Shown piece after piece: positions 54,507 to 62,942 of a stretch of 64,000 nt of DNA. The stretch covers positions 806,001 through 870,000 of the forward strand of contig NZ_JAHCLT010000001.1 of the NCBI RefSeq assembly GCF_020005165.1, in the 5' to 3' direction. Source of the DNA: Kangiella taiwanensis (GTDB lineage: Bacteria; Pseudomonadota; Gammaproteobacteria; Enterobacterales; Kangiellaceae). The notes under the pieces were generated by a model, which saw only the letters and a program-made list of their open reading frames with translations, was not told the DNA's origin and did not search any database. Each line of letters starts with the position of its first letter. The first letter of the stretch is position 1. Made by a program: the position numbers and the translations under genes.

Positions 54507-55742
54507 TTAATCTTTGGCAAGACGGAGGAGTGTGTTGAGTAGGACTTGTGTGCCTTTTTCCACATCATCCCAGTGCGACCACTCATCTGGTGCGTGACTG
54601 ACGCCACCAACACTAGGGATAAATATCAAACCTGTTGGTGTTAAATCGGTAAAGAACTGTATATCGTGACCTGCTCCGCTTGGCATCTTCATGTAAGAGT
54701 AATCCAATGCCTTAACTTCTTCCTCGATCAGGTCAACCACTTCAGGGCTAAAGTATTTTGGTTCAAGCCAACTCATTTGTTCATACTCAAAATAAAGCTT
54801 ATGCTTGCGAGCAATGGAGGAAAGAACTTTGCGACAACTGTTAGCCAGTTGGTGCATGATATCTTCCTGCATATCACGACCAACAATGGTGAAGTGTGCT
54901 TCGCCAGGAATGGTGTGAGCATAGCCAGGCTTTAAGTCAACTCGTCCAATCGTTAGACGGCTTTTATCGGTACCTTCTTCATCAATAATACGGCTGATCT
55001 CATGAGCAAAGTCTGCCAGTCCCATAAAAGCATCGCTGCGCATATCCATAGGTGCTGTACCTGCATGATCCGCTTTACCTTTAAGCTTAACTAACCACTT
55101 AAAGACACCAGAAATACCATCAACCACACCGATGCATTTTTGTGAATTTTCTAAGACTGGACCTTGCTCAATATGAAGTTCTAAAAATGCCTTCATGCTG
55201 GAAGGGTCGCGTCGGGCACGAAGAGTATCGTGAATATCTAGCCCACATTTTTTCAGGGCATCTTTTAAATATTCTCCTTTAGGGTCGCGAGCAGACTCCA
55301 GCCAGTCTAGAGTTAAATGACCACTTAAAGCTTGTGCGCCGAGCATGCCGCCAAAACGGCCTTCTTCTTCGCTGGTGCCGATAATTTCGATTGGGCAATT
55401 AACCTCGATATTGTTTTCTTGAATAACTCGAATGCATTCTAGGCCCGCGATTACGCCCAGAGTACCATCAAACATCCCCCCTGCAGGGACTGAGTCAAGG
55501 TGGGAGCCGATAAGAACGGCTGGTTGGTCAGGGTCGCCTAAGCGTCCACATACATTGCCTGCACCGTCCATGTGAGTTGTCAGACCGCAGCTTTTAAATT
55601 TCTCCATTATCCACCGCCGCGCCTGCATATCAATATCGGTTAATCCCTGCCGATAAATGCCTTTGTCTTTTTCGTTGAAACCAAACTTTGATAACTCGTA
55701 TAAATCATTTTCTATTCGTTCAATATTGATTGGATTGATAAT
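54507..55742 (-). CDS. N-carbamoyl-amino-acid hydrolase/allantoate amidohydrolase (M20 family), probable ATT/ATC start
   Basis: The M20 metal-ligand motifs are intact: GSHLDSVPAGGMFDG, GTSEEEGRFGG, ELHIEQGPVLE, GAGHDIQFF and VGGVSHAPDE, as in HyuC, AmaB and AllC. The first conventional start (ATG 55628) would give 373 residues and cut off the family's N-terminal helix. The frame stays open upstream and encodes a typical N-terminus (ERIENDLYELSKFGF, then YRQGLTDID). AAGG at 55751-55748 precedes ATT 55742 by 5 nt and ATC 55739 by 8 nt. Starting there gives about 411 residues, the family length. It would remove a carbamoyl group, releasing ammonia and CO2. It faces the carbamoyltransferase cluster. 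Confidence 0.82.
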   Translation of the reverse strand: MINPINIERIENDLYELSKFGFNEKDKGIYRQGLTDIDMQARRWIMEKFKSCGLTTHMDGAGNVCGRLGDPDQPAVLIGSHLDSVPAGGMFDGTLGVIAGLECIRVIQENNIEVNCPIEIIGTSEEEGRFGGMLGAQALSGHLTLDWLESARDPKGEYLKDALKKCGLDIHDTLRARRDPSSMKAFLELHIEQGPVLENSQKCIGVVDGISGVFKWLVKLKGKADHAGTAPMDMRSDAFMGLADFAHEISRIIDEEGTDKSRLTIGRVDLKPGYAHTIPGEAHFTIVGRDMQEDIMHQLANSCRKVLSSIARKHKLYFEYEQMSWLEPKYFSPEVVDLIEEEVKALDYSYMKMPSGAGHDIQFFTDLTPTGLIFIPSVGGVSHAPDEWSHWDDVEKGTQVLLNTLLRLAKD

Positions 55743-55746
55743 GATT

Positions 55747-55872
55747 ACCTTAATTAGTGTGAGTCATGTCTAAAATATATACCTTAATTAGAACCTTAGA
55801 TCTACCCGTTTGATTTGATTTCAAAGCTTTGCTAAGGTGGGTTGTCTTTCGCAGAGACATCAACCTTAGGTT
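55747..55872. promoter_or_regulatory. Divergent control region with repeated ACCTTA motif
   Basis: ACCTTA occurs at 55747, 55781, 55793 and 55863, and inverted at 55838-55833. The first two lie in an 11-bp direct repeat ACCTTAATTAG spaced 34 bp apart, and the last in AACCT-T-AGGTT. These may be operator sites for both directions. Confidence 0.45.
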
Positions 55873-56454
55873 ATGACCAAATACATGGTATCGGTCTTCC
55901 TGTTCCTGCTGATGATGAGTAGCGGGGCAATAAGTAGTGAGTGTGGTGAGCGACAATGCGCATTAGACTTACAACTCAAAGAAGGCAAGGATGAGGCAAT
56001 TACATCAGGCCACTTTAATTTAGTTTGGCCCATCGAAAAGCAGTCGACCACTTCAGAGTCGCAAGAGTCTGAGGGTGACAGGGAAGATGAATCTTCTGTA
56101 GCTAAAAATTCTAAAAAAAACACTTCTAATATAAAAGGTGCTTTAATCGATTACGAACAGCACCCAGCAAAACAACTTAAAATTTCTTCGGAACAATCTC
56201 TCACGACAATTAGTCACTCCATTGATATTCACTCAACGCAGCGTGCAATAAGTCTGACCGGATTCTCCGATGGTATTTATTACGCACAGTTATTTGATAA
56301 CAACGATCAACCGGTGAGTAATCAAGTGAAAGTTACTGTCGAGCATCATTCTATGACCAAAGTTTGGATTATTTTTACTTCTGGAGCCGTATTATTCTTA
56401 ATTCTGATTGGCTATATGGTGACTAAAGTTTTCCGTCATAAAGAAGAAGCGTAA
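55873..56454 (+). CDS. Exported single-span membrane protein of unknown function
   Basis: A 193-residue protein: signal peptide (about 1-21), a periplasmic part with an acidic low-complexity stretch (about 60-90) and a beta-rich Ig-like segment (SLTGFSDGIYYAQLFDNNDQ), then a C-terminal TM helix (about 160-183) and a basic tail. The symporter gene starts 2 nt after its stop, so it is probably an accessory or sensor subunit of that transporter. I do not recognise the family. The start may be ATG 55873 or ATG 55885; neither has good spacing. Confidence 0.75.
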   Translation: MTKYMVSVFLFLLMMSSGAISSECGERQCALDLQLKEGKDEAITSGHFNLVWPIEKQSTTSESQESEGDREDESSVAKNSKKNTSNIKGALIDYEQHPAKQLKISSEQSLTTISHSIDIHSTQRAISLTGFSDGIYYAQLFDNNDQPVSNQVKVTVEHHSMTKVWIIFTSGAVLFLILIGYMVTKVFRHKEEA

Positions 56455-56456
56455 TT

Positions 56457-57884
56457 ATGGACTATAACCCGATTTCGATTACAACGGCGTTAGTGTTATT
56501 GGTTCTTTTTGGAGTCGTATGGATTTTCTTTGGCTGGTGGTTAGGCCGAAAGAATAAATCCTTAGATGACTTTATGCTCGCGGGGCGTAACGTCGGGTTA
56601 GCATTTGCTGGCGCAACAGCAATGGCAACTTGGATTACCAGTAATACGACGCTTGTGGCACCACAACTTACTTACCAGTATGGTATTTGGGGCATGGTAG
56701 GTTACTCGCTAGCTGCGTTAGGTTTAATATTTTTTGCTCCTATGGCAAAGCGAATCAAAGAGTTGATGCCAAAAGGTTATACCTGCGGAGACTTTATTCG
56801 CGTTCGTTATGGTAAAGCTGCTTGGGTTGCATTTTTAGTAGTTTCTTTTTGTTATGCCATGGGATGGTTAGTCAGTCTCGGCATGGCCGGTGGAGTTTTA
56901 CTGAGTACTTTAAGTGGCTTGAGTTACCACGTTGGGATGACGGTGATTTTAGCGATCTGTGTTGGTTATACTCTATTGGGTGGTCTTAAAGCAGTAATTG
57001 CAACAGATTATGTGCAAACTATCATCATTATTGTCGGCATATTAATCATCGGTTTTGTTTGTTATCAGACGGTTGGCTTAGAGACCGTATATGAATACAA
57101 CAAACAGTATCATCCAAAATTACTAGATTTATTATTCCCAGCATCATTATTGTTTCTGTTTAACAATATCTTTTTTGGACTTGGTGAGATTTTTCACTCC
57201 AATGTGTGGTGGTCACGAGCGTTAGCATTTAGATCTGGAATTGGAAAAAAAGCATATCTTATGTCTGGCTTGTTGTGGCTCCCCATACCAATTGTAACAG
57301 GGTTCATCGCACTAGCGGCGCCATCACTTGGTTTGTATCCTGAATCTAGTGATATGGTAGGCCCCATGGTGGCTGCGAATTTACTGGGTGATATTGGTGC
57401 TATTTTTGTCTTTATTGTAGTCTTTTCGGCACTAGCATCGAGCTTGGATTCTTTGTTAGCAGCGACCAGTGACTTAGTCACACGAGATATTTATAACGGC
57501 CTAGTTGATAAAAAAGCCAGCAAAGAAAAGTTACACCGTATCAGTAAGTTAGTGATTCTTGGACTTGGGTTTGTAACTTGGTTAATTTGTCTACCGAGAC
57601 TGTCAACATTAGGTGGTGTTTTACTGCTAACTGCAGGATTTGTGGCTAGCACTATATGGCCTATAACGTTAGGTCTATACCAAAAGAGATTGTCTGGAGA
57701 GTTTGCTACAGGTGCCTTTGTTTTAGGAAGTGTGGCAGGACTTATTGGTTACTATACTGTCGGTGACTACGTTGCAGCGCTCTTTAGTTGTATCGTGTCA
57801 TTTGTGATTTGCATGATTGGCTTGTTGGTTAAAAACGATAACTTTGATTGGCAACGTCTGAAGAATATGGAGAAACCACAGTGA
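56457..57884 (+). CDS. Sodium:solute symporter (SSS family)
   Basis: A 475-residue SSS transporter with about 13 hydrophobic helices. Family motifs include WWLGRKNKSLDDFMLAGRNVG (TM1-TM2), ATAMATWITSNTTLVAPQLTY and the TM8 region with SSLDSLLAATSDLVTRDIYNG, holding the Na2-site Ser/Thr residues. It resembles proline/pantothenate/urea-type symporters but cannot be assigned to one substrate. It is flanked by an exported partner (2 nt upstream) and a 40-residue membrane protein (overlapping GTGA), in an operon with a carbamoyltransferase. Confidence 0.92.
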   Translation: MDYNPISITTALVLLVLFGVVWIFFGWWLGRKNKSLDDFMLAGRNVGLAFAGATAMATWITSNTTLVAPQLTYQYGIWGMVGYSLAALGLIFFAPMAKRIKELMPKGYTCGDFIRVRYGKAAWVAFLVVSFCYAMGWLVSLGMAGGVLLSTLSGLSYHVGMTVILAICVGYTLLGGLKAVIATDYVQTIIIIVGILIIGFVCYQTVGLETVYEYNKQYHPKLLDLLFPASLLFLFNNIFFGLGEIFHSNVWWSRALAFRSGIGKKAYLMSGLLWLPIPIVTGFIALAAPSLGLYPESSDMVGPMVAANLLGDIGAIFVFIVVFSALASSLDSLLAATSDLVTRDIYNGLVDKKASKEKLHRISKLVILGLGFVTWLICLPRLSTLGGVLLLTAGFVASTIWPITLGLYQKRLSGEFATGAFVLGSVAGLIGYYTVGDYVAALFSCIVSFVICMIGLLVKNDNFDWQRLKNMEKPQ

Positions 57885-58003
57885 TTATTTCTCTAGAAGC
57901 ATTAGAAACATTAGTGCTGGTGGCGATGGGCGTAACCTGCTTGTCACCAGTAATATTAATTATCTTGATGATCAAGGATTGGTTGAAGGAAGAATTATGG
58001 TGA
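57881..58003 (+). CDS. Small 40-residue membrane protein, symporter-linked
   Basis: GTG 57881 overlaps the symporter stop (GTGA), and the frame runs 40 codons to TGA 58001. The product has a polar start (IISLEALE), one strong hydrophobic helix (about residues 9-31) and a charged end (KDWLKEELW). The downstream carbamoyltransferase starts inside its last codons, so the three genes are overlapped in series. Both overlaps and the clean transmembrane design support a real gene too small for routine calling. It may be a symporter subunit, like small partners of other transporters. Confidence 0.7.
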   Translation: MIISLEALETLVLVAMGVTCLSPVILIILMIKDWLKEELW

Positions 58004-59067
58004 ACCCAATGGTTGATGAAAGTATGAAGTTCTCGCGTGTGAAACCTGATGTGTTTGGAGACGCGCACCCAAAAGCTTTATTAAAGCGAATACAAGAAGA
58101 TGGCGACAAGCTACAGGTACTTGCTAATCAGCATATTGTTTCAGCAGAGCAGTTTGATGCGGACACAATATTGCAGTTGTTTAGGTTAGCCAGTAAGTAT
58201 GAAAGCAACCCTTTGCGTTTTAGTGACCCCCTTAAAGGCAAAATCCTGATCAGTGCATTCTATGAGCCCAGTACCCGAACACGTTTGTCTTTTGAAAGTG
58301 CGTGGCATCGTTTAGGCGGCGATATTATGTCGATCACTGATCGTGCAACAACCGGCATTGCGAAAGGTGAGTCTTTAGCTGACGTCGGTGAAATGTTTAA
58401 CAACTATGGTGATTGCGTTGTTCTGCGTGAATCAAACGAAGAGTCAGTGACGGAGATGACCTCGACACTTCGGATTCCTATCATTAATGCGGGTAACGGT
58501 ACGCGTGAGCATCCGACACAGGCAATGGCCGATCTCTATACGATTTTCAAATGGAAGCCAGAGCTACTTGAAAATAATGGCACCAAAATAAAAATTGGTG
58601 TGATTGGTGTGCCTAGCTTTATGCGAACGGTGAGAAGTTTATTAAAATTATTTGCGCTGTTCCCTGATATTTTTTCAGAAGTTGTTTTAATTCATGACAG
58701 TGGTGAAGATGAAATCTTTACTCCAGGCCAGCGTGAAAAATTAGAAAAGAAGGGCTTGAACTTAACCTTAAGCAGAAGTTTAGATGATGTCTTACCCACA
58801 TTAGACGTAGTCTATATAAACGCCATTGCTTGGGTTGGTGATTCATATGAAGAGCATGGGACCAAGTTTAAGCTTGATAAGAACTCTCCATTGAAAGAAG
58901 ACGCTATTATTTTACATCCTTTAGCGCGTGGAGATGAATTGTCTACAGACTTAGATGAAACGTCACATAACTGGTATTTCTCACAAGCACGCGGTGCTGT
59001 ATTTCTGCGTATGGCGTTGTTGACTTGTATGGTTGAAAGAACGGAGCGAGTACTCGACGTCGTTTAA
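57997..59067 (+). CDS. Aspartate/ornithine carbamoyltransferase superfamily enzyme of uncertain substrate
   Basis: The start is ATG 57997, 6 nt after AAGGA, rather than TTG 57979; this gives 356 residues. The carbamoyl-phosphate site is preserved: EPSTRTRLSFESA, KGESLAD (the ATCase Lys84 loop), VVLRES (Arg105 equivalent), REHPTQAMADLY and FMRTVRSL (Arg167). Two deviations stand out. The ATCase HPLPR motif reads HPLAR, and the aspartate-binding TRVQKER loop (Arg229, Gln231) is replaced by NAIAWVGD. pyrB normally sits near other pyrimidine genes, which are absent here. The acceptor is probably not aspartate. Confidence 0.85.
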   Translation: MVNPMVDESMKFSRVKPDVFGDAHPKALLKRIQEDGDKLQVLANQHIVSAEQFDADTILQLFRLASKYESNPLRFSDPLKGKILISAFYEPSTRTRLSFESAWHRLGGDIMSITDRATTGIAKGESLADVGEMFNNYGDCVVLRESNEESVTEMTSTLRIPIINAGNGTREHPTQAMADLYTIFKWKPELLENNGTKIKIGVIGVPSFMRTVRSLLKLFALFPDIFSEVVLIHDSGEDEIFTPGQREKLEKKGLNLTLSRSLDDVLPTLDVVYINAIAWVGDSYEEHGTKFKLDKNSPLKEDAIILHPLARGDELSTDLDETSHNWYFSQARGAVFLRMALLTCMVERTERVLDVV

Positions 59068-59123
59068 TATTTCCTATCAATACGACTTTATTATTTTAAC
59101 TTAAATCCGAGGAGATTTAGTGT

Positions 59124-61136
59124 ATGTGTGGAATCGCGGGTGTGATTCACAGTGATAAAAGTAGAACCATTGATTCTCAAACGTTAGTTAATATGGCAGC
59201 GATTCAATATCATCGTGGGCCTGACAACTTTGGTTATCATAACCCTCAAGGCGCCGGTGTTGGTTTAAGCCATGCACGCTTAACCATCATTGACTTGGAT
59301 GAAGAAAGAGGGCGCCAACCGCATGTCAGCGATGATGGTCGTTACATGATGGTGCACAATGGCGAGTTTTATGACTTCCAGCGAATTCGTGCGTCAATGA
59401 CAGCACAAGGAGCTCGCTTTCAGAGTAAAAGTGATTCTGAACTCGTGTTACAAATGTACCCACACTATGGTATCGAAAAGACAGTAGAAAACCTGCGTGG
59501 CGAGTTTGCTTTCTCGATTTATGATCGAGAAGAAGAAACCATGTATTTAGTGCGCGATCGCTTTGGCATTAAGCCGCTTTACTGGACTGAGACAGAACAT
59601 GGTGTGGTTTTCGGTTCTGAGTTAAAGGTACTGTTTGCACACCCTGACGTTAAGCGCGAAATTGACTCGGAGGGTTTGTATCACCAACTGATTCAAGTCA
59701 TGGTACCGGGCTCGACCGCTTTTAAAGGTGTAAATCAAGTACCGCCAGGGCATTGGATTAAGATTCAGCGCAAAGATGGCAAGCTAAAGATTGAGCAGCA
59801 CAAATACTGGGATATTGATTTCCCGCAAGCGGAAGAGCATTTAAAAGTAAAAGAAGAGCAAGAATATATTGAGGGTGTTCGCGAAAATCTACTTGAAGCA
59901 GTACACCTACGTTTAAATGCTGATGTTCCGGTTGGAGCTTATTTGTCAGGAGGAATCGACTCTTGTTCGATTCTTGGTTTGTCGGCAGCAGTTCGCCAAG
60001 ATCCAGTAAAAGCCTTCACTATTGGTTTTGATGATGCTGATTATGATGAAACGCCTATCGCCACAGAAATGGCGGAAATGACCGATGCAGAACAAATCGT
60101 TCTACCTTTATCGGCTGAACACTTATACGATCATTTTGAACGCACTATTTGGCATACTGAACGAACCATTTATAACACGCTTGGCGTAGCTAAGTTATTG
60201 ATGAGTCAAAAGGTTCGTGAGCAAGGTTACAAAGTCGTGCTAACCGGTGAGGGGAGCGATGAACTATTCGCGGGCTACCCTGCATTCCGAAAAGATATGT
60301 TCTTATATGGATTGTCTGATTTGCCAGACAATCTACGAAGTGATTTGCAGTCAACATTGGCTGAATCCAATGAGTTGTTCAAAGGCGCCATGTTGCCACG
60401 TGAAGAGTTTCACTCAGAAGCCATTGATAAAAAGGTAGGATTTACGCCAACCTGTATCCAGAGTTGGATGGGTTGCGATAACTTTGCGCGGGACTTAATG
60501 ACGAAGGACCACCAAGCCAATATTAAGGATTATGATCCGGGAACAGCAATGGCAGAGCAGTTTGACGAGACGCAACTTGAAGGTCGTCATCCTCTGGATA
60601 AAGCGCAATATGTGTGGATTAAAACCATGCTCGAAGGGCAGATCTTAACCTGGGGTGGTGACCGCGTTGATATGGCTAACTCGATGGAAGCCCGCCCACC
60701 ATTTTTAGATCACCATTTGGCCGCTTATGCGGTAAATATTCCACCACAAATGCGCATTAAAGGTCCTGTTGAAAAGTATGTGCTTAAGGAAGCGATGAAA
60801 GGTTTGCTACCTGAAACACTCTATAAGCGCCAAAAATTTGCCTTTATGGCGCCACCAGCTCATACGGATGAGAAAAAGTGGAATGCTCTGATGGAGCTTA
60901 TGGAGGAATTTGCCAACGAAGAGAAGATCAAGGAAGCTGGTTTGATTGATTATGGTGCGTTACAAGCGATGCTCAGAAGCCATGATGACCCAACAGTGTC
61001 GCGTGACTCGAAAGTTCAGATGGATGCAATCTTGAATCATGTTCTTGGCGTTCAGCTTCTGCATCATCACTTTGTTAAACAAGATATTCCAAAGAAAGCT
61101 GCAGCAAAAGCGCATGAGCTTGGTTGGGCTGCTTAA
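59124..61136 (+). CDS. Asparagine synthase (glutamine-hydrolysing) family amidotransferase
   Basis: A 670-residue AsnB-type enzyme. Cys2 of the N-terminal MCGIAG is the Ntn glutaminase nucleophile, with HRGPD, HARLTIID and VHNGEFYD around it (1-210). The synthetase domain has the PP-motif YLSGGIDSCSI near 275, GEGSDELFAGYP near 375 and DRVDMANSMEARPPFLDH near 515. It is longer than E. coli AsnB (554 aa), with an insert at about 400-490. Such enzymes amidate a carboxylate after adenylation; relatives make asparagine or N-acetylglutaminylglutamine amide. GAGGAG lies 9 nt upstream. It ends the cluster. Confidence 0.9.
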   Translation: MCGIAGVIHSDKSRTIDSQTLVNMAAIQYHRGPDNFGYHNPQGAGVGLSHARLTIIDLDEERGRQPHVSDDGRYMMVHNGEFYDFQRIRASMTAQGARFQSKSDSELVLQMYPHYGIEKTVENLRGEFAFSIYDREEETMYLVRDRFGIKPLYWTETEHGVVFGSELKVLFAHPDVKREIDSEGLYHQLIQVMVPGSTAFKGVNQVPPGHWIKIQRKDGKLKIEQHKYWDIDFPQAEEHLKVKEEQEYIEGVRENLLEAVHLRLNADVPVGAYLSGGIDSCSILGLSAAVRQDPVKAFTIGFDDADYDETPIATEMAEMTDAEQIVLPLSAEHLYDHFERTIWHTERTIYNTLGVAKLLMSQKVREQGYKVVLTGEGSDELFAGYPAFRKDMFLYGLSDLPDNLRSDLQSTLAESNELFKGAMLPREEFHSEAIDKKVGFTPTCIQSWMGCDNFARDLMTKDHQANIKDYDPGTAMAEQFDETQLEGRHPLDKAQYVWIKTMLEGQILTWGGDRVDMANSMEARPPFLDHHLAAYAVNIPPQMRIKGPVEKYVLKEAMKGLLPETLYKRQKFAFMAPPAHTDEKKWNALMELMEEFANEEKIKEAGLIDYGALQAMLRSHDDPTVSRDSKVQMDAILNHVLGVQLLHHHFVKQDIPKKAAAKAHELGWAA

Positions 61137-61358: not shown

Positions 61359-61838
61359 ATGCATATAACTCGATACACGGATTACTCGCTTCGGGTATTA
61401 ATTTATCTTTCGTTGAATACTGACAAGCGTTCAACCATTAAAGATATTGCTGACAGTTATGGCATTTCTAAAAATCACTTAATGAAGGTTGTACACAACT
61501 TAAATAAGTGTGGTTATATTGAAACCTTAAGAGGCAAAAAAGGTGGTATGCGCCTCAGTAAAAATCCTGAAAATATTAATATCGGAAAACTCGTTTTAGA
61601 GCTAGAACCAGACTTTAATCTCGTTGAATGTTTTTCTCATAACGGCAACTGTGTGATCACTCCTGTTTGTGAACTGAAGTCTATTCTTGGTAATGCTTTA
61701 AGTTCTTTTATCAAGAAGCTGAGTGAGTATACTCTTGCTGACGTTATCGTTAAAGGTGATGAGAAAAAGGCCGCAGAAATTCTGGGCCTTGATTCGCTTA
61801 ATGATAATAATGTGATTCCTATCAGCAACGTTAGCTAA
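61359..61838 (+). CDS. nsrR: Rrf2-family regulator, NsrR-like
   Basis: A 159-residue Rrf2 protein. The winged HTH (MHITRYTDYSLRVLIYLSLN, SYGISKNHLMKVVHNLNKCGYI) and the C-x6-C-x5-C iron-sulfur motif (ECFSHNGNCVITPVCELK) closely resemble NsrR, in which a [4Fe-4S] cluster senses nitric oxide and derepresses detoxification genes. The first Cys spacing is two residues longer than in E. coli NsrR. Neighbouring genes do not include hmp or other NO-stress genes. AGGGA precedes ATG 61359. Confidence 0.82.
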   Translation: MHITRYTDYSLRVLIYLSLNTDKRSTIKDIADSYGISKNHLMKVVHNLNKCGYIETLRGKKGGMRLSKNPENINIGKLVLELEPDFNLVECFSHNGNCVITPVCELKSILGNALSSFIKKLSEYTLADVIVKGDEKKAAEILGLDSLNDNNVIPISNVS

Positions 61839-61853
61839 TAGATTTAAGTCGCT

Positions 61854-62942
61854 TTAGACTCTTTGCCATACCCAAAGGATTCCCAGTAAGAATATCGCTA
61901 TTGAGACGAAAGGTACTAGAACCTTCCTCACTTTTTCATGCTTGTTCAGTAACAAAAGCAAAGGTATTGCCACTAGAATGATAGCGATTTGTCCTATTTC
62001 CACACCTAGGTTAAAACCTATGATACTAGTGAGCTGGTGACTTTTACTAAGACCCAGCTCGCTCAGCGCGCCAGCAAAACCCAATCCATGCAGTAAACCA
62101 AACGCTACCGTCATAAGCATCAGACGTTTAATCCAATGGGTGACAACGTTTAAAGCGGAGTAAGCCACGGATATCGCAATCCCGACCTCTGCCCACTTTG
62201 AAGAAACCGAGATCCAATCAAGAGCGGTTAAGGTTAAGGTGATGGAGTGAGCAATCGTAAAGCCAGTGACTAACCAAATCATGGATTTAAGATTAATCGT
62301 ATTCCTGCTCGGGGTGCTGGTTGTCTGGCGGGGTTTGTTTACATAATGCAGAAGCAATGTGAGAACAAACAATACATGATCCAATCCAATCCAAATGTGG
62401 ATCATTCCCTGGTAAAGATAAAAGAGAAACGTATCCCATGCAGATTGAGACGATGTTTCTACTTCCCAATGCTGAGCAGGTTTATCAATAATGGTTTGAG
62501 TTTGCCCTTCTTCGAACGACCAGTTAATGAGTAGCTTGTGATCTGATGTTGAGTCAAACAAAGCCGTATAATGTACCGTTAAAGGCAAGGTGCAATTAAA
62601 GTTAAGTGGCTGTTTTAGTAACGTTTCGCCATAACTATCTAATAAGCTGATATCAGAGCCAAAAGTAATAGGGCAGCTGCTATTTGGAGTATTGAACTGT
62701 AAGTGCTTCCTTAGATACTCAGTAATGATTGAATGACTCTGAGACAGTTCAGCCCAAGTGAGGTTACCATCTTTATTGGGATCTAGACCTAAAGTATGAT
62801 GAAGGTCGCTCACTGATAGTGCAATATATCCTTGGTGATGGCCTTCTGATGATTGCTCAAGTGTTAAGTTTGCTGTACTAAACTCGTGTGCTTTTAATGA
62901 TGTTGCAACGAGTAATAGCGCTATCATGATTAAGTTGCGCAT
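61854..62942 (-). CDS. HupE/UreJ_2-family membrane protein with EF-hand
   Basis: A 362-residue protein. A signal peptide ends KAHEF (about residue 19). The exported N-terminal half contains a canonical EF-hand loop DPNKDGNLTWAE (about 54-65). The C-terminal half has about seven helices with HupE/UreJ_2 motifs: the HIWIGLDHVLFVLTLLL and TIAHSITLTLTAL His motifs and GLLHGLGFAG. HupE proteins are linked to nickel or other metal import, but this long group is uncharacterised. It starts 7 nt after the TPR gene on the same strand, so they are probably co-transcribed. Confidence 0.85.
   Translation of the reverse strand: MRNLIMIALLLVATSLKAHEFSTANLTLEQSSEGHHQGYIALSVSDLHHTLGLDPNKDGNLTWAELSQSHSIITEYLRKHLQFNTPNSSCPITFGSDISLLDSYGETLLKQPLNFNCTLPLTVHYTALFDSTSDHKLLINWSFEEGQTQTIIDKPAQHWEVETSSQSAWDTFLFYLYQGMIHIWIGLDHVLFVLTLLLHYVNKPRQTTSTPSRNTINLKSMIWLVTGFTIAHSITLTLTALDWISVSSKWAEVGIAISVAYSALNVVTHWIKRLMLMTVAFGLLHGLGFAGALSELGLSKSHQLTSIIGFNLGVEIGQIAIILVAIPLLLLLNKHEKVRKVLVPFVSIAIFLLGILWVWQRV

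Follow-up and report, generated by a model that had tools for sequence, protein, structure and literature searches.

A carbamoyltransferase and amidotransferase gene pair in Kangiella taiwanensis: a candidate pathway for N-carbamoyl-L-glutamine 1-amide

The stretch of DNA analyzed (the window) comprises 64,000 nucleotides of the 2.56-Mb genome of Kangiella taiwanensis (G000:C1:806001-870000 in the genome set used) and contains, at positions 54507-61136, the six-gene cluster that is the subject of this work. The genes code for an M20-family N-carbamoylase (hyd), a periplasmic protein (peri), a symporter (sss), a 40-residue peptide (small), a carbamoyltransferase (CT, gene ct) and an AsnB-type amidotransferase (asn), with hyd on the minus strand and the other five divergent from it (Table 1). 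The original prediction for this DNA had named a carbamoyltransferase, an amidotransferase, a symporter with two membrane partners and a divergent hydrolase, all of which were found in place, and had proposed that they synthesize, import and recycle a ureido-amide similar to N-carbamoyl-L-glutamine 1-amide (CGA).

Table 1. Features of the cluster, in window positions
Feature	Position	Strand	Basis
hyd, M20-family N-carbamoyl-amino-acid hydrolase	54507..55742	-	TIGR01879 and PRK09290 profile scores, upstream frame
Divergent control region between hyd and peri	55743..55872	.	Sequence
peri, 193 residues, candidate symporter partner	55873..56454	+	Conserved beside symporter
sss, sodium:solute symporter	56457..57884	+	PF00474 above cut-off
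small, 40-residue hydrophobic membrane peptide	57881..58003 (GTG 57881 to stop 58003)	+	Open reading frame, locus conservation
ct, carbamoyltransferase of a new clade, similar to aspartate carbamoyltransferase, proposed L-glutamine N-carbamoyltransferase	57997..59067	+	PF02729/PF00185, active-site comparison
asn, glutamine-dependent AsnB-type amidotransferase, proposed alpha-carboxylate amidation	59124..61136	+	PF13537, PF00733, TIGR01536

CT has the PF02729 and PF00185 domains of the aspartate/ornithine carbamoyltransferase (ATCase/OTCase) family, and its structure model reached a pLDDT of 84.2. The genome contains three genes with an OTCace domain: ct, a separate pyrB, and a gene at C2:665 kb, which probably codes for the N-acetylornithine carbamoyltransferase (AOTCase) of the arginine pathway, an enzyme named in a figure legend of a Kangiella paper (PMC6000758). 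The original prediction was to be abandoned if CT were the only ATCase of the organism, and the presence of PyrB rules this out. CT itself remained under the cut-offs of the PyrB equivalogs (204.6 versus 236.95 bits for TIGR00670, and 194.4 versus 263 bits for PRK00856). Orthologues of CT in relatives score 561-779 bits, while the PyrB copies score at most 157. The closest copies are those of Kangiella, with 96% identity to that of an uncultured member of the genus.

The active site was studied by aligning 27 CT rows with E. coli ATCase. The residues E50, S52, T53, R54, T55, K84, R105, H134, Q137, R167, T168, P266, L267 and R269 were kept in every row, so the carbamoyl-phosphate site (STRT, Lys84, Arg105, His134 and Gln137) is present throughout, with the exception of Ser80. 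On the other hand, Arg229 was replaced in all the rows (Ala in 25, Ser in two), as was Gln231 (Ala in 22, Ser in four, Val in one); in addition, Thr228 was Asn in 27/27 and Arg234 was Gly in 25/27. The PyrB of the same genome retains Ser80, Arg229 and Gln231. Which carboxylate of the substrate each of Arg229 and Arg167 binds in ATCase is taken here as an assumption. Since Arg229 and Gln231 are lost, while the carbamoyl-phosphate site and Arg167 are kept, an acceptor other than aspartate is indicated, and CT probably still binds carbamoyl phosphate and an alpha-amino acid with a side chain different from that of aspartate. Both arginines are located in the active site of ATCase (PMC6056424).

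The amidotransferase combines a GATase_7 domain (PF13537) with an Asn_synthase domain (PF00733), and it scored above the broad TIGR01536 cut-off (441 versus 267 bits). It was under the cut-offs of the AsnB equivalog PRK09431 (278 versus 499 bits), of TIGR03104, the amidotransferase (AsnO) of N-acetylglutaminylglutamine amide (NAGGN) synthesis (327 versus 570 bits), and also of the XrtA-type equivalog. The asn homologues of the five relatives tested gave the same pattern in every case, with 301-325 bits for TIGR03104. The residues named in a paper on human asparagine synthetase (PMC6748925) lie, as judged by eye and unaligned, within superfamily-wide motifs of asn.

Concerning the accessory proteins, hyd scored above the cut-off of the hydantoinase/carbamoylase subfamily (TIGR01879, 326.4 versus 204 bits) and under that of the N-carbamyl-L-glutamate amidohydrolase equivalog, ErtE (353 versus 520 bits). 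The symporter belongs to the SSS family and fell under the TIGR00813, PutP and PanF cut-offs. Peri shows a hydrophobic N-terminus, a beta-strand domain and a C-terminal helix; it matched no family in Pfam or NCBIfam, and in its low-confidence fold model (pLDDT 57.5) only the beta-strand domain and the C-terminal helix are readable. An additional protein, referred to as X, is found at other loci and is an isochorismatase-superfamily amidase (PF00857).

The conservation of the cluster was considered in three sets of loci. In the Kangiellaceae group (18 loci, 11 from the genus and seven from other genera), the order sss-small-ct-asn was kept in all 18, with L044 and L049 partly cut by contig ends; peri was present in 17, the exception being L044, which begins inside sss. 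The hyd gene was found in 15, divergent in 10 of the genus and downstream on the same strand in five others; it was not seen in L047, where 4.5 kb of flank was searched, nor in the cut loci L044 and L049. X was absent from all 18. The L047 locus carries, directly 3′ of asn (L047:10972-12315, with ct on the plus strand), a radical SAM protein of the KamA type, which resembles lysine 2,3-aminomutase but scores under the cut-off for that enzyme.

The second set came from 369 evenly sampled gammaproteobacterial genomes (368 plus that of the window), where a CT match at a threshold of 1e-55 was obtained in 24/368: 22 with orthologues (60-66% identity) and two with only diverged paralogues (about 40%). 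The loci of 21 of the 22 orthologue genomes were examined, G370 being excluded because of its short contig. In 20/21, asn followed ct, 22-556 bases past the aligned end, the exception being a contig end (L095); in L086, an open reading frame of 130 residues lies between them. The hyd and X genes were each present in 20/21, the exception being a 3.4-kb contig (L057), and the symporter in 17/21. L092, L093 and L094 contain CT paralogues of about 40% identity in which the STRT and HPTQ motifs are changed and which have no asn close by; they are perhaps inactive or of other function.

The third set was derived from a scan of named genomes with the C-terminal domain of CT, which yielded 246 relatives, of which the best 80, the most window-like, were analyzed. 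In 80/80, ct was followed by asn, with a gap of 3-388 bases (median 30). The symporter was found in 77 of these loci, peri in 58, hyd in 41, small in 40, a MarR protein at ≥45% identity in 34, and X in four. Some loci were cut by contig ends, and the counts of small and peri are probably too low, these proteins being short or fast-changing. Six Idiomarinaceae genomes had no hyd in the vicinity of ct; in five of them it lies elsewhere (62-65% identity), and in the sixth, that of Idiomarina loihiensis, no match was found. Control loci (13 of PyrB/AOTCase with flanks of about 1.5 kb, and three of diverged CT paralogues) showed asn beside the control gene in 0/16, so the linkage can be rejected as a general property of carbamoyltransferases.

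The linkage of ct and asn was seen across gamma-, alpha- and betaproteobacterial and cyanobacterial records, the carriers including Idiomarina and relatives, Thioalkalivibrio, Alteromonas halophila, Nitrosomonas halophila, Kordiimonas, Synechococcus and Cyanobium, many of them halophiles as judged by name only. The co-occurrence in relatives, which had been suggested as a check, thus extends far outside the genus. In the CT tree, nine cyanobacterial copies and one contig of a gammaproteobacterial metagenome-assembled genome formed one supported group, which fits gene transfer, short of proof. The latter contig (L171), with its CT inside the Synechococcus group, is probably mis-binned.

The connection with a known compound is provided by Ectothiorhodospira. 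The CT/amidotransferase pair is present in Ectothiorhodospira mobilis DSM 4180 (L168) and DSM 237 (L167). At NCBI, the name E. marismortui leads to E. mobilis; DSM 4180 is given as the E. marismortui type strain in print (PMC7824335), and E. marismortui accumulates CGA (PMC1224877), as the original prediction had noted. So, the gene set is present in a known CGA organism. DSM 4180 as such played no part in the choice of the query, but the twin genome of this strain (G380, L076) was among the class-sample hits. In DSM 4180 and DSM 237 alike the order is hyd-X-ct-asn, so that a pair of enzymes for making CGA would stand beside a pair for dismantling it. In a search of listings and excerpts of open-licence papers, none was found to name genes for CGA biosynthesis. 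A genome of the same family group (G434:C1:1194650-1195402) gave a match to CT residues 112-361 only, possibly a broken or shortened copy.

It seems reasonable to interpret the cluster as, probably, a CGA pathway in which glutamine is carbamoylated and then alpha-amidated, with symporter uptake and hydrolytic breakdown of the product. CT would transfer the carbamoyl group of carbamoyl phosphate to the alpha-amino group of L-glutamine, giving N-carbamoylglutamine; asn would activate its alpha-carboxylate with ATP and amidate it with ammonia from a second glutamine, giving CGA. The symporter, with peri and small, would recover or import the solute, and in the breakdown X would take off the amide and hyd the carbamoyl group, so that glutamine is regained. 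A biosynthetic direction is assumed on the grounds that the one invariable companion of CT is an amidotransferase that consumes ATP. The synthesis of a ureido-amide by transferase and amidotransferase, as first proposed, is supported by the pair in DSM 4180 and by the active site. The genes, how they are linked and distributed, and the loss of Arg229 and Gln231 from CT are shown here; the acceptor, the product, the direction, the transport, the control by salt and the osmolyte role are inferred. Recycling stands in part: hyd and X each accompany nearly all the class-sample loci, while among the named ones hyd is found in only about half and X in very few.

As regards the osmolyte role and a presumed control by salt, a gene for an MscS-type channel starts 10 bases past asn in L075 and 1.56 kb past it in L074, and the other class-sample loci gave no MscS match at 1e-10. 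Six MarR proteins from the vicinity of the cluster show 45-56% identity, over 141-153 residues, to the MarR beside the NAGGN asnO gene of L197, the single matching locus among the 12 NAGGN loci on which this comparison rests. In P. aeruginosa, the MarR protein PA3458, divergent from the NAGGN operon, represses it (PMC8070244). The ectoine operon is lacking in Kangiella (PMC6000758).

Several observations weigh against a CGA pathway. Ser80, which we take to be a carbamoyl-phosphate contact from the neighbouring chain, is Gly in all 27 CT rows. The top score of hyd is with an allantoate amidohydrolase subfamily (PRK09290.1-5, 494 bits for a cut-off of 399). X is absent from the K. taiwanensis genome and near only 4/80 named loci, compared with 41/80 for hyd, and because it is missing, the Kangiella breakdown route, as proposed, is incomplete. 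No symporter is found at the DSM 4180 or DSM 237 locus, the K. taiwanensis genome has no close MarR of the NAGGN type (best match 30% over 107 residues), and AsnA was not found in G009, one of the 12 genus genomes carrying the cluster. Furthermore, CT occurs in 41/47 genomes of the Ectothiorhodospira family group, and in 38/38 of the near-complete ones, versus 24/368 in the class sample; the coincidence of CT with a CGA producer is a real test, and a soft one because of this high frequency. In the literature, CGA was noted in 2013 as a minor solute of one organism only (PMC3857566), and for Thioalkalivibrio the published excerpts mention betaine and, for strain ALJ 15, sucrose, with no mention of CGA; both papers lack the word carbamoyl.

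Among other explanations, the same chemistry could lead to another product, e.g., the N-carbamoyl amide of asparagine, or the product could be a nitrogen store instead of an osmolyte. The comparison of active sites reveals only a probable alpha-amino acid acceptor lacking the contacts of the aspartate side chain, the product would be nitrogen-rich, and breakdown genes are present in many loci. However, CGA is the sole compound of this kind reported, and it comes from a bacterium listed as DSM 4180, a carrier of the genes, while some loci have a MarR of the NAGGN type or an MscS gene in their vicinity. This explanation is considered unlikely.

Salvage of an environmental ureido compound, mentioned from the start as an alternative, would have the symporter import it, the hydrolase open it, and CT acting in reverse recover carbamoyl phosphate. 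Other carbamoyltransferases act catabolically, and the frequency of the symporter (77/80) and of hyd (41/80) near ct in the named loci would be in line with this. Nevertheless, it seems improbable, as the partner kept in 80/80 of these loci is an ATP-using amidotransferase, and the Ectothiorhodospira loci have no symporter.

Another possibility is that asn makes asparagine, as an ordinary asparagine synthetase would, and that this asparagine is then carbamoylated by CT to N-carbamoyl-asparagine. Besides the score of asn above the broad asparagine-synthase model, it is favored by the distribution in 20 genomes of the genus: ct is present in 12, in 12/12 there is an AsnB gene above cut-off at the place of ct, and asn is the only AsnB-type gene above cut-off in each of them. 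In G009, where AsnA was not found, asn could be the asparagine source. However, the K. taiwanensis genome has AsnA above its cut-off, plus AsnRS, so the amidotransferase need not supply asparagine; AsnA is above cut-off in 10/12 carriers, including this one, and an eleventh, G002, has fragments only. Asparagine supply as the role of asn is thus made unlikely, with G009 as the exception. Moreover, asn falls well short of the AsnB equivalog, and among the eight genus genomes without ct, six have no AsnB above cut-off (one of them 55% complete) and two have another AsnB. Altogether, this explanation is regarded as improbable. Finally, the adjoining by chance of a PyrB duplicate and an AsnB, conceivable insofar as the family matches alone are generic, is hardly credible in view of the linkage across several bacterial classes versus 0/16 controls and of the clade-wide loss of Arg229 and Gln231.

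Returning to the CGA pathway, a wider proposal can be put forward tentatively, at close to even chances: that CGA is an osmolyte of wide occurrence, produced by a module of two enzymes (ct-asn) that is often accompanied by a three-part sodium transporter and has spread across Idiomarina, Thioalkalivibrio, Kangiella, Alteromonas relatives, Kordiimonas, Nitrosomonas halophila and some Synechococcus/Cyanobium, with CT as an L-glutamine N-carbamoyltransferase. To our knowledge, no described enzyme has this specificity. The proposed assignment of genes to a compound is the valuable part of the finding: it offers candidate genes for CGA, which was first described in 1991 and was known from only one organism as late as 2013 (PMC3857566), and it turns the origin of CGA into a question for two enzymes in vitro. 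If true, it would mean a new carbamoyltransferase specificity, a means of tracing a nitrogen-rich solute by its genes in many marine and halophilic bacteria and some cyanobacteria, and a route for making CGA.

Some details of the locus concern gene starts and surroundings. Because the stop of sss overlaps the start of small, and the stop of small overlaps the ATG region of ct, translational coupling is suggested. For CT, the start ATG 57997 is more likely than TTG 57979. The frame of hyd probably runs upstream of ATG 55628, to about 55742, and its start is probably ATT 55742 or ATC 55739, likely after an AAGG-type site (window minus strand 55739-55754); in the window, L034, L035 and L036 (4/7 rows compared), no ATG, GTG or TTG occurs between the upstream stop and the conserved N-terminus. 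Such a non-standard start may keep the expression of hyd low. The control region contains two copies of ACCTTAATTAG, at 55747-55757 and 55781-55791, 34 bases apart. Downstream of asn, the region 61359-62942 holds a gene for an Rrf2-family regulator, nearest to NsrR yet under the NsrR cut-off, and another that is HupE/UreJ-like by eye; both adjoin the cluster in several Kangiella loci. Genes of urease type, UreC-like and UreG-like by eye, are found near the cluster at L173:15042-16751 (Synechococcus) and L152:20-619 (Kordiimonas).

Compared with known systems, CT shares with PyrB the fold family, the STRT motif and the residues Lys84, Arg105, His134, Gln137 and Arg167, and differs from it by the absence of Arg229 and Gln231, by the change of Ser80 to Gly and by its scores under the equivalog cut-offs. 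Hyd is a member of the same subfamily as the M20 N-carbamoyl-L-amino-acid hydrolases and allantoate amidohydrolases, with a score under the cut-off of the ErtE equivalog. X belongs to the same family as biuret hydrolase, RutB and N-carbamoylsarcosine amidohydrolase, far under their equivalog cut-offs (87 versus 370 bits for biuret hydrolase), and is absent from the window genome. A parallel in function would be the NAGGN operon asnO-ngg with the MarR repressor PA3458, in which a glutamine derivative with a blocked amino group is amidated at its alpha-carboxylate by an enzyme of the AsnB type, yielding a neutral osmolyte (PMC8070244). The role proposed for asn is the same reaction on a similarly blocked glutamine, with the difference that here the blocking would be carried out by a carbamoyltransferase, that asn is far under TIGR03104, and that the cluster has no ngg.

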